Source: an uncultured Gammaproteobacteria bacterium (GTDB lineage: Bacteria > Pseudomonadota > Gammaproteobacteria > Arenicellales > JAANXG01). From it: DNA of 37,278 bases. Made by a program: the position numbers and the translations under genes. Shown one piece after another: positions 2,387 to 5,076 of this stretch. Positions within the stretch are counted from its first letter, which is position 1. Every line of letters begins with the position of its first letter. A model generated the notes under the pieces. That model did no database searches. It saw nothing but the letters and a program-made list of their open reading frames with translations, and was not told the origin of the DNA. Where the stretch lies: contig CAMYIN010000126.1 in assembly GCA_947258495.1 (NCBI GenBank), positions 1 to 37,278 of the forward strand, given 5' to 3'.

Positions 2387-2989
2387 ATGCCGGACCAACT
2401 AGAACCCGTGCCTACACACCTGACTACGCGCCGTGGCTTTATTGTCCTGTGCGGTTTCGCCGTGGTGAGCCTGTACGGCTTGTGGGCGGCGTATGGCGCG
2501 GCGCCGAGCGGACTCGGCCGCGACGACGCAGCCATGTCGTCACCGCCGACAGCCGGCGCACCGCAACCGCTGGATACGCACATGCCGCCGGAAGAATTCC
2601 GTCGACTGGCGCAGGAGTTCGTCGACGCCAACATCCAGGCCGACGGCAGCGTCAAGCCGTCGTTGGACACGAGCGCCGCCACCGCCCTCGCCGGGGCCTA
2701 CATCGGTGAGCCGGTGGACGTCTACATCCAGGCGCGGCAGTACAGCTATTGGCCGGCGGTTCTGAGGCTGGAACGGGACGTTCCCTACCGCTTCCGCATC
2801 ATGGCCATGGACACCGACCACGGCGCCTCCATTCAGTTTCAGGGCGCGGCCTATATGATCCGAGCGCCGGCGGAGCACGTGGTAGAGAAGGTCCTCGTAT
2901 TCCGGGAGGCGGGGGAGTATCCGGTCTTCTGCACCGTGTACTGCGGCATCGGGCACGATCTGATGAAAGCAAAGATCGTGGTGGAATAG
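2387..2989 (+). CDS. cytochrome c oxidase subunit II-like CuA protein (ba3 type)
   Basis: The protein has 200 residues: one N-terminal transmembrane helix (about 17-38), a linker, then a cupredoxin domain. The full CuA ligand set is visible: His145 (in DTDHG), Cys182, Cys186, His190 and Met193 within CTVYCGIGHDLM, matching the Cys-x3-Cys-x3-His-x2-Met pattern. A single helix and short length fit the ba3 (B-family) oxidase subunit II rather than the two-helix A-family type. CuA accepts electrons from a soluble cytochrome c or cupredoxin and passes them to the low-spin heme of subunit I, whose gene begins 10 bases downstream. The frame is open upstream of 2387, but the ATG at 2387 puts the helix where expected. 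GTG at 2408 is an alternative. No strong ribosome binding site decides between them. Confidence 0.87.
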   Translation: MPDQLEPVPTHLTTRRGFIVLCGFAVVSLYGLWAAYGAAPSGLGRDDAAMSSPPTAGAPQPLDTHMPPEEFRRLAQEFVDANIQADGSVKPSLDTSAATALAGAYIGEPVDVYIQARQYSYWPAVLRLERDVPYRFRIMAMDTDHGASIQFQGAAYMIRAPAEHVVEKVLVFREAGEYPVFCTVYCGIGHDLMKAKIVVE

Positions 2990-2999
2990 CGGGCGCGCG

Positions 3000-4673
3000 A
3001 TGGCCAACGTCGCTTTGGTAACGCGACTGCGTCGTCTCCCCGCCGGCGACAAGCGCCTGCTGCGGGCGTTCGTCTTCCTGGCCCTGCTGAGCCTCGCCCT
3101 CGGCGTCGTATTCGGGGCGCTCACCGCGTTTCGGCGCGCCGGATTCCTGGCCCTGCCGCACGCCGTCGGCTACGAAATCTTGAGCCTTCACGGCGTCACA
3201 ATTTTCTTCTACTGGCTGTATTTCGTACAGGCGGCTTTGGTGCTGATGCTCGCCAGCGTCTACACCGACGGCGTCGGCCGGCTCCTGGGCAGGCCCCTGG
3301 CCTGGGTCGCGTTGGTGCTGATGGCGGTGGGATTCGGATTGAGCGAGCTGACGCCGGCGATGAACGTGCCGCTGCTGTACGACGGCAACCCCGAACTGGT
3401 GGTGGAGCACTCCGCCCTGGCCGGGATTTTCTACCTGGGATACGTGGTCATGAGTGCGGGCCTGTTCCTGGTCGGCGCGAGCGCGATCCTCACCGCCCTG
3501 GGACCGAAATTCGCGGGGCGCGCGGAATCCTGGTCGGCCGTCACCTTCGCCACCGTGGCCTGGGCGGGTCTGCTCATGGTCAGCGCCATGGCGGCGTTCA
3601 ACGTGTTCCTGCCGCCCATGCTTTGGGCCTTCGGCCTCGGCCCGGCGGTCGCCGACTACGGTATGCAGTGGCACGTGCTGTTCCACAACATGCACTACTT
3701 GCCGCTCATGGCCACGGTCATCGTCTGGTATGTGCTGGTCGAGGTCATCACCGGGGTGCGCTCTATCTTCGGCACCCAGTTCTCCAAGATCGTGTTCACG
3801 AGTTATCTGATCTTCGTCCCTCCCACGTTCCTCTACCATATGTTCCTGGATCCGGGCCTCGCCGACGCGGTGAAGGTAATCGGCTCGTTGCTGTCGTTGT
3901 TTATCGCCGTCCCCACCATACTCGTCTACCTGATCATCGTCAGCTCGCTGGAGGCCTATGCCCGGGCCCAGGGCGGCAGGGGCCTGTTCGGCTGGATGCG
4001 CCTGCTTCCCTGGGACAATCCCGCCATGACGGCGATCGGCCTCGCGACGCTCAACATGGCGATCGGGGGCGCGCTTTCGTTCGTGCTCATTCAAGGGAAG
4101 CTCGCACCGTTGCTGAGCGACACCTTCTTCGTCCCCGGTTATTTCCATTTCTTGACGCTGGGCACGGTGACGCTCAGTTTCATCGCCGCCCTGTTGTACG
4201 TGATCCCAGGGGTTACCGGGGGTTCCGTGTGGCGACCCCGGCTGATGAACCAATTGCCGCTTATCCTGTCGCTGGGATTGTTGATCTTTGGCGCCGCCGG
4301 CGTCACCGCCGGGTACATCGGCGTGCCCCGCCGGGTGTTCGATATCGGCTACGGCGGCGAGGCACCGGCGTGGTGGGCGTCGCTCATGTTCCTCGTCGGC
4401 GTCGGCGCGGTTTTCATGAGCGCGGCGCTGGCGCTCTACGTCTACGGGTTGTTTCGCATGTTGCTGCAGCGCCGCGTAGACGCGGACACGATCGTTTCCG
4501 CGCTCCCCGAGGTGGCGCTCGGCGAAGGCAGCGTCGGACATCAGCCCGCGTGGACAGGGCCGCTCTCCGTTCTCGTCCTCATCGGCGCCATGGCGGTGTT
4601 CACGATTCTGGGCTTCGAGCTCATGCAGAGCGTACCCCTGTCCGCAACCGGGGGTGGCCACGCACACCATTAG
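3000..4673 (+). CDS. ba3-like heme-copper oxidase subunit I with altered binuclear-centre ligands
   Basis: The protein has 557 residues and many transmembrane helices, and it aligns by eye with Thermus ba3 oxidase subunit I; GGRGLFGW, LPWDNPA, VPRR and AVP segments are shared. The low-spin heme ligands are kept: His64 (SLHGV) and His383 (YFHF). One CuB histidine (His229) and the Tyr four residues later (Tyr233, cross-linked Tyr position) are also kept in FHNMHY. The usual His-His pair before DPG is Tyr279-His280 (LYHMFLDPG), and the high-spin heme axial His of GHFH is Tyr381 (PGYFH). The codons TAC and TAT were read directly. Loss of these ligands makes ordinary O2 reduction doubtful. The C-terminus is His-rich (GGGHAHH). 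It is cotranscribed with the CuA subunit and overlaps the next gene. Family membership is strong; activity is unknown. Confidence 0.88.
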   Translation: MANVALVTRLRRLPAGDKRLLRAFVFLALLSLALGVVFGALTAFRRAGFLALPHAVGYEILSLHGVTIFFYWLYFVQAALVLMLASVYTDGVGRLLGRPLAWVALVLMAVGFGLSELTPAMNVPLLYDGNPELVVEHSALAGIFYLGYVVMSAGLFLVGASAILTALGPKFAGRAESWSAVTFATVAWAGLLMVSAMAAFNVFLPPMLWAFGLGPAVADYGMQWHVLFHNMHYLPLMATVIVWYVLVEVITGVRSIFGTQFSKIVFTSYLIFVPPTFLYHMFLDPGLADAVKVIGSLLSLFIAVPTILVYLIIVSSLEAYARAQGGRGLFGWMRLLPWDNPAMTAIGLATLNMAIGGALSFVLIQGKLAPLLSDTFFVPGYFHFLTLGTVTLSFIAALLYVIPGVTGGSVWRPRLMNQLPLILSLGLLIFGAAGVTAGYIGVPRRVFDIGYGGEAPAWWASLMFLVGVGAVFMSAALALYVYGLFRMLLQRRVDADTIVSALPEVALGEGSVGHQPAWTGPLSVLVLIGAMAVFTILGFELMQSVPLSATGGGHAHH

Positions 4674-5076
4674 CGCTGTGGTGAAAAACACGGACGCCAG
4701 ACTCATCGGCCTGGTCTCCACAATCTGGGGGGGCTTCGCCGTCACCTATTGGGCGCTCGGCATGCGCACCAGCGCCATGACCTGGGGCGCAGGCGCGTGC
4801 GTGTTCTTCATCTTCGCCGTCGCCATGACCTTGGCGCGAGCCCGCACCGCCTCGACAAAGGACACTGTCGAAGCGTTACCCCGGGCACCACGGCACGGCG
4901 ACACGGTGTTCTTGGCGACAGTGTCCGCCGTTTGGACGGTATTCGCTCTCGTTTACGCCTGGCTGGGCATGTCCATCAGCGCCGTGACCTGGGCGGCGGG
5001 CGCCTGGCTGTTCCTCCTGCTTACCGCGGGGTTGGTCGCGGCGAGACGGCGTCGCGGCCCGCGCGCACGAGTATAG
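4654..5076 (+). CDS. small membrane protein with internal two-helix duplication
   Basis: The product is up to 140 residues with four predicted transmembrane helices in two pairs. The halves (about residues 17-62 and 89-135) share a pattern with spaced identities: VS-x2-W-x2-FA, Y-x2-LGM, SA-x-TW-x-AGA and a closing AR-rich stretch, so the gene arose by internal duplication. The GTG at 4654 lies inside the end of the oxidase subunit I gene (20-base overlap). GTG codons at 4678 and 4681, just after that stop codon, are equally possible starts. Position and overlap suggest an accessory subunit of the oxidase-like complex. I do not recognise the family, and this is inference from context. Confidence 0.65.
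   Translation: MATHTISAVVKNTDARLIGLVSTIWGGFAVTYWALGMRTSAMTWGAGACVFFIFAVAMTLARARTASTKDTVEALPRAPRHGDTVFLATVSAVWTVFALVYAWLGMSISAVTWAAGAWLFLLLTAGLVAARRRRGPRARV

Follow-up and report, generated by a model that had tools for sequence, protein, structure and literature searches.

A proteobacterial family of heme–copper oxidase-type subunits with tyrosine at two active-site histidine positions

A heme–copper oxidase-type subunit I encoded at 3000–4673 (forward strand) of a gammaproteobacterial contig, analysed over its whole 37,278 nucleotides (the window), carries tyrosine at the positions of two active-site histidines, and alignment of its homologues identifies this pair as a trait of a whole family, not a mutation. 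Judged by sequence and fold, the protein is a member of the COX1 superfamily. It is filed here neither as an oxygen reductase nor as an NO reductase, since it lacks the axial histidine of the high-spin heme, the canonical CuB ligand set and the K path, and retains the cross-link tyrosine. The family is probably a branch of the superfamily with a role other than O2 respiration.

The reading frame is intact and encodes 557 amino acids. It matches the Pfam COX1 model (5.8e-34), and subunit I of the Thermus ba3 oxidase is its top match among solved structures in a phmmer search. Tyr279 (TAC, 3834–3836) aligns with the ba3 CuB ligand His282, and Tyr381 (TAT, 4140–4142) with His384, the axial ligand of heme a3. 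The histidine beside the first tyrosine is kept (Tyr279-His280, 3834–3839; ba3 His283), as are the low-spin heme ligands His64 (3189–3191; ba3 His72) and His383 (4146–4148; ba3 His386), together with His229 and Tyr233 (ba3 His233 and Tyr237). An initial annotation, made from the letters alone, had read the motifs as Tyr279-His280 and G-Tyr381-F-His383 and had listed His64, His383, His229 and Tyr233 as retained; codons, coordinates and the ba3 alignment all agree with it. Misalignment was considered and rejected, the motifs being gap-free around the changed positions in the eNOR and ba3 rows. Beyond the residues listed in that annotation, the alignment reveals further invariant differences (window/ba3): Phe228/Gly232, Asn230/Pro234, His232/Val236, Ser373/His376 and Ala369/Asp372.

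The family set comprises 40 distinct open reading frames from proteobacteria, with L047 and L137 representing the two parts of a single gene. Of the sequences covering each site, 39/39 have Tyr279 and 38/38 have Tyr381. Among 55 distinct non-family rows within reach of the family profile, histidine occupies the first position in 55/55 and the second in 54/54. Four residues, Tyr279, Tyr381, His232 and Ser373, are invariant in the family, and all four are absent from the non-family rows, of which up to 55 cover the positions. Phenylalanine is never found at Tyr279 or Tyr381 in family rows, which argues that the hydroxyl groups are used. In nine pairwise comparisons of family genes, dN/dS lies between 0.11 and 0.22. 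The initial annotation had taken the intact frame to argue against decay and had proposed looking for the two tyrosines in homologues; the selection estimates bear out the former and the counts above the latter. Sequencing error and decay are rejected on the same two grounds. With the same residues present in separate genomes, among them an isolate and several plasmids, and with frames that are open and under purifying selection, an origin in sequencing error, misalignment or pseudogene decay would be extremely improbable.

Six close relatives share 75–76% identity with the window protein. When genome contigs were scanned with these seven sequences in alignment, at least 33 loci emerged at 51–76% identity, a count that is a lower bound because the scan relied on two short peptide patterns. 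These loci belong to alpha-, beta- or gammaproteobacteria or to unplaced proteobacteria, and they include the isolate Gemmobacter megaterium DSM 26375. The gene is also carried on three Azospirillum plasmid records (53–55% identity). The genome searches scored few candidates per genome, so that the counts by class, order and phylum that follow are lower bounds. The family appears rare in the genomes sampled, being present in at least 6 of 337 in the class of Gemmobacter and in at least 2 of 250 in the order of a betaproteobacterial carrier, the centre genome being counted in both. Within the window's own taxonomic family the gene is present in 7/13 genomes, the window genome included. When the search was extended to the window's class (369 genomes, E up to 1e-40) and phylum (398 genomes, E up to 1e-30), a family gene was scored in the window genome only; the remaining matches, one and 18 respectively, were eNOR- or ba3-like. 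On alignment of the loci, 2 of 34 gave no alignable open reading frame, as did 18 of 64 in a further set.

In a tree of 65 selected rows the 31 family rows included form one clade with full support (100/100). The nearest group is eNOR (99/100) and the ba3-type rows fall outside, with the exact neighbour uncertain because the family stem is long (2.46 changes per column). Many of the matches outside the family are genes of eNOR type, which carry Gln in place of the cross-link tyrosine (L008–L015, L050, L084–L088, L091–L100, L125, L141–L145, L147–L158 and L163), and one of them, L163, carries an annotation as a cbb3-type oxidase subunit.

Subunit I is encoded within a conserved operon. The gene upstream (2387–2989, forward strand) specifies a subunit II of 200 amino acids with an N-terminal hydrophobic segment, a linker and a CuA cupredoxin domain, counted from an ATG at 2387 that was picked by reading, longer starts being possible. 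Its match to the NCBIfam CoxB model (1.7e-4) lies under that model's cut-off, and it has no match in Pfam. A full CuA site is present, as had been noted initially: His145 (2819–2821), Cys182 (2930–2932), Cys186 (2942–2944), His190 (2954–2956) and Met193 (2963–2965). The C-x3-C-x3-H-x2-M motif recurs in 35/35 family subunits II and both low-spin heme histidines are invariant, in keeping with the earlier proposal that electrons can enter the complex. The third gene (4654–5076, forward strand) encodes a small hydrophobic protein made up of two similar units of about 65 amino acids fused together; its GTG start is uncertain (4654, 4678 or 4681), and searches of Pfam and NCBIfam gave no match up to 0.001. 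This gene order recurs in other loci: by gene calling, subunit II is present in 34/36, and homologues of the third gene, of 57–140 amino acids as called, lie downstream in 30/36, some contigs ending early. The window protein is best explained as the catalytic-type member of this conserved complex of three genes, whose descent is B-type (ba3/eNOR-like).

Two minor features of the operon may be recorded. The third gene is a fused tandem pair of units in the window's lineage (the window and L017–L022) and a single unit of about 60 amino acids in other lineages. A TTRRGFI stretch near the start of subunit II (2423–2443), which we take to resemble a twin-arginine signal, occurs in many family subunits II; it is altered in L026, L028, L032, L037, L044 and L047, and is thus probably not essential.

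Further residues around the site are replaced alike throughout the family, which bears out the earlier suggestion that the catalytic site has been remade. Phe228 (3681–3683) is present in 40/40 family rows at a position where 54 non-family rows have Gly (46), Leu (7) or Ala (1). The corresponding Gly232 of ba3 is described as lining the channel for O2, whose access is strongly inhibited in R. sphaeroides by the matching change Gly283Val (PMC3141039). In the adjoining segment His229-Asn230-Met231-His232-Tyr233 (3684–3698), all residues except Met231 are found in 40/40 rows; Asn230 lies at ba3 Pro234, and the position of His232 is occupied by Gln (43) or Val (11) in the 54 non-family rows. Ala369 and Ser373-Asp374 (4104–4121), found in 38/38 family rows, replace ba3 Asp372 and His376-Asn377. 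Non-family rows have Asn (50), Asp (3) or Ala (1) at position 369, and His in 54/54 at position 373. Asp372 and His376 of ba3 are assigned to the heme a3 propionate and proton-loading site (PMC5085690).

The proton path appears to have been altered as well. The equivalents of the K-path residues Thr312, Thr315 and Tyr244 are hydrophobic in 31/31 family rows and that of Ser309 is Thr in 31/31, whilst the equivalents of Tyr248 and Tyr133 are kept in 30/31 and 31/31, respectively. Some of these changes are, on the evidence of the alignment, less telling than they appear: Leu occurs at Gly232 and Asn at Asp372 in relatives, and Tyr244 is also lost in eNOR, where it is Val or Ile in 18/18 rows. Arg449 and Arg450, which serve heme b in ba3 (PMC3141039), have equivalents in the family. 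As read from the aligned residues, what serves CuA and the low-spin heme is retained. The changes that stand out most, at the axial histidine, the CuB histidine, His376 and Thr312/Thr315, affect the side of the high-spin heme, of O2 and of protons.

Besides the low-spin heme ligands, the only invariant histidines in the membrane core are 229, 232 and 280; further ones lie outside it, at the C terminus (His554, His556 and His557, gaps ignored). His229, His232 and His280 may form a three-histidine metal site in which His232 replaces the lost His282. The claim that a CuB ligand has been lost therefore stands for the position, which is indeed Tyr, and may fail for the effect, as the invariant new His232 could replace the ligand. 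With three histidines taken by such a site, only a tyrosine would be left for the second heme. Side-chain volumes give no clear sign that a heme cavity has been filled: the mean change at 52 family-specific sites is +5.5 cubic angstrom, with 23 residues larger and 16 smaller, and the same measure gives −11.4 over 66 eNOR-specific sites.

An AlphaFold2 model computed with 28 family rows (pLDDT 78.9, pTM 0.85) has Thermus ba3 as its best Foldseek match (1ehk; TM 0.75, rmsd 7.8 over 555 columns, E 1.5e-16). Model confidence is low at the active site, with block means of 58–65 at 221–240 and 271–300; only residues 491–500 and the C-terminal end score lower.

Comparison with known systems places the family within the superfamily and shows departures from both its oxygen reductases and its NO reductases. 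Its sequence family and fold are those of COX1, and both low-spin heme histidines are present (His64 in 39/39, His383 in 38/38). Six histidines, one of them the axial ligand of the catalytic heme, are named as a signature of the superfamily (PMC3475470), and two of these six are replaced by Tyr279 and Tyr381 in the family rows covering them. Like Thermus ba3, the family has a CuA-bearing subunit II (35/35), the low-spin histidine pair, and equivalents of the CuB ligands His233 and His283 and of Tyr237, Tyr133 and Tyr248; the helix VI cross-link tyrosine is predicted to be Tyr233 (40/40). Unlike ba3, it has Tyr for His282 and His384, and thus neither the three canonical CuB histidines nor the high-spin axial ligand, together with His for Val236, Phe for Gly232, Ala and Ser for Asp372 and His376, and hydrophobic residues for Tyr244, Thr312 and Thr315, so that the alternative K path (Thr312, Thr315, Tyr244, Ser309, Tyr248) is not preserved as such. 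With eNOR it shares proximity in the tree and Val/Ile at the Tyr244 position. However, eNOR has Gln at the positions of both Tyr233 and His232 and His at those of Tyr279 and Tyr381, and the Gln in place of the cross-link tyrosine that is diagnostic of eNOR (PMC8756737) is replaced by Tyr in 40/40 family rows. The bNOR, sNOR, gNOR and nNOR enzymes, proven or proposed NO reductases (PMC11388526, PMC3475470), are likewise B-type relatives. Unlike these and the c/qNORs, the family keeps the cross-link tyrosine and alters the axial heme histidine, a distinction drawn for sNOR, gNOR and nNOR from their published descriptions. A candidate yardstick for sNOR, L146, was dropped, as visual inspection of its neighbours revealed nothing SenC-like.

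Tyrosine-ligated hemes are known from other protein families, such as the heme catalases, HasA and Sfh5, and such hemes have low potential, are hard to reduce and support peroxide chemistry. These proteins resemble the present family only by analogy of chemistry, in that a tyrosine-bound ferric heme is proposed here; their folds are unrelated, and the tyrosine-ligated heme of the family is putative.

Two more genes of the COX1 family, which score far higher against the profile (553 and 412 bits), are present in the window genome. The first (L053) has motifs that we take to be A-type, and the second (L070) is guessed from its score to be cbb3. Further COX1-family genes were found in 13/14 other carrier genomes searched, so the family complex is probably auxiliary. 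For part of the family the surroundings are rich in genes for metal export. A single cluster of P-type ATPases is represented in 8/36 loci; its members in L034, L038 and L046, and a further ATPase beside the G903 copy (L168), pass the cut-off of a copper-translocating ATPase model, pass a cadmium model at a lower score and fall under the CopA equivalog cut-off. A CusA/CzcA-family pump is encoded in L031, genes of its cluster occur in L036 and L051, and L046 has a multicopper oxidase (copper-resistance model, below cut-off). YHS, DUF302, DUF2933 and LTXXQ proteins are among the neighbours in these loci. In the other group, which includes the window, a multicopper oxidase is found in L024 (Pfam) and an RND pump of unassigned substrate in L167. 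Nine genomes with 3–10 P-type ATPase matches each were considered, and five of the nine have one within 8 kb, against a chance of 1–4% per genome by hand estimate; the genomes were partly chosen on the observed link and their lineages are related, so that five of nine is an indication only.

A copper context as a family-wide rule was rejected by the neighbour tallies, which cover 249 of 254 listed proteins from 27 of 36 loci; it applies to some members only. Of the 179 neighbour families in the other group, the 25 commonest include none linked to copper; peroxide defence is likewise unrepresented among the 25 commonest in either tally (141 and 179 families), and no copper-export genes lie beside the window's copy. 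A Met/His-rich subunit II linker as a mark of copper handling was likewise discarded: where linkers could be delimited (26/35), the content was 0.102 in the island group and 0.103 in the other.

The explanation tentatively preferred, although held with rather less than even confidence, is that the complex is a CuA-fed redox enzyme with a tyrosine-ligated heme that performs neither O2 reduction nor proton pumping and perhaps acts on peroxide. Electrons would pass from a cytochrome c or cupredoxin to CuA, then to the low-spin heme and on to the rebuilt site. There a metal would be held by His229, His280 and His232, the last as a substitute for the missing His282, and the high-spin heme would be bound by Tyr381 as a ferric tyrosinate with Tyr279 and Tyr233 alongside. 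O2 reduction and proton pumping would most likely be absent, as a tyrosine-ligated heme is hard to reduce and the access of O2 and protons looks altered. A partly reduced oxidant such as peroxide would be the likelier substrate, with protons drawn from the periplasmic side, and the complex would serve as an auxiliary enzyme alongside normal oxidases. A more specific version, by analogy and unlikely as a full account, would make it a hydroperoxidase built on the heme–copper oxidase fold, a membrane cytochrome c peroxidase. Tyr381 would then bind a ferric heme on its proximal side, like the tyrosine of heme catalases, and His232 would act as a distal catalytic histidine or else complete a relocated metal site as its third ligand, with CuA and the low-spin heme passing electrons from cytochrome c; such an enzyme would have descended from an oxidase or NO reductase, with some lineages recruited into copper-export islands.

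The main rival holds that the high-spin heme has been lost, and it may indeed be absent. A copper site formed by His229, His232 and His280, with Tyr279 and Tyr381 as possible further ligands, would then exchange electrons with CuA and heme b, for instance in Cu(I) oxidation or copper sensing as part of copper homeostasis. Loss of both the axial histidine and His376, the lack of any further invariant histidine in the membrane core, and the placement of some operons among metal-export genes are all consistent with this. However, the other group shows no copper family among its 25 most frequent neighbours of 179, linker Met/His content is equal in the two groups (26/35 measured), and a vacated position should drift, whereas Tyr381 stays Tyr. 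A tyrosine-ligated ferric heme is favoured because Tyr381 is never Phe and for the want of clear cavity filling, and the heme-free site is judged rather improbable.

Retention of O2 or NO reductase activity in an atypical B-type enzyme, with tyrosine tolerated as a heme ligand, would accord with the family's descent, its CuA input and its cross-link tyrosine. Leu at the Gly232 position in 7/54 relatives and the absence of Tyr244 from eNOR show that related proteins share some of the changes, and NO reductases with Asp for one CuB/FeB histidine are on record (PMC3475470). Such activity is nevertheless unlikely given the altered axial histidine, the Phe at the O2-channel glycine, the hydrophobic residues at Thr312/Thr315 and the further COX1-family genes in the window genome and 13/14 other carriers; for NO reduction in particular, the cross-link position holds Tyr and not the Glu, Gln, Asp or Asn described for NO reductases (PMC3475470). 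Less probable again is a non-catalytic electron relay or redox or copper sensor with a vestigial binuclear centre. A RegB/ActS-type kinase gene lies upstream of the operon in L023 and L025, and a RegA/ActR gene in L025, but the link is confined to these two loci, and the strict invariance of the rebuilt site would not be expected of a vestige. On balance the CuA-fed complex with a tyrosine-ligated heme remains the preferred reading. The interpretation given in the initial annotation is thus supported in part, namely in the absence of decay, the recurrence of the tyrosines, electron entry and a remade site; its tyrosine-ligated heme, different substrate and sensory or relay role are putative, and its CuB-ligand loss may be wrong in effect.

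A search of the literature, with subscription papers outside its scope, gave no report of a tyrosine axial ligand in the superfamily and no earlier account of the family. Such an account is nevertheless possible. A published set of profiles (Murali, Hemp and Gennis 2022, via PMC11707229) splits the B-type group finely, into B1 to B9, and one of these may cover the family. A published classifier discarded sequences without the six histidines (PMC3084760), and a filter of this kind could remove the Tyr/Tyr family by design. With its electron input kept and the axial histidine changed to tyrosine, the family offers a natural experiment on which parts of an oxidase are needed for O2 chemistry, and the cultured carrier Gemmobacter megaterium DSM 26375 makes its function directly testable.

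Some neighbouring genes are worth recording in their own right. Upstream of the window's operon lie a gene for a TlpA/ResA-like thioredoxin and, on the opposite strand, one for a BNR-repeat protein (336–869 and 1011–2207), whose clusters are each represented in five loci, the window included; the thioredoxin could serve CuA maturation. The RegB/ActS-type kinase genes are at 992–2940 in L025 and 329–2307 in L023. The accompanying RegA/ActR regulator is confirmed in L025 and is a cluster match in L023, which suggests redox control in that lineage. On an Azospirillum brasilense megaplasmid (L051, 2093–9878) the operon adjoins an RND-type efflux set, assigned by cluster, together with ICMT, DUF2933 and LTXXQ proteins, in a stretch that is unannotated in the record.
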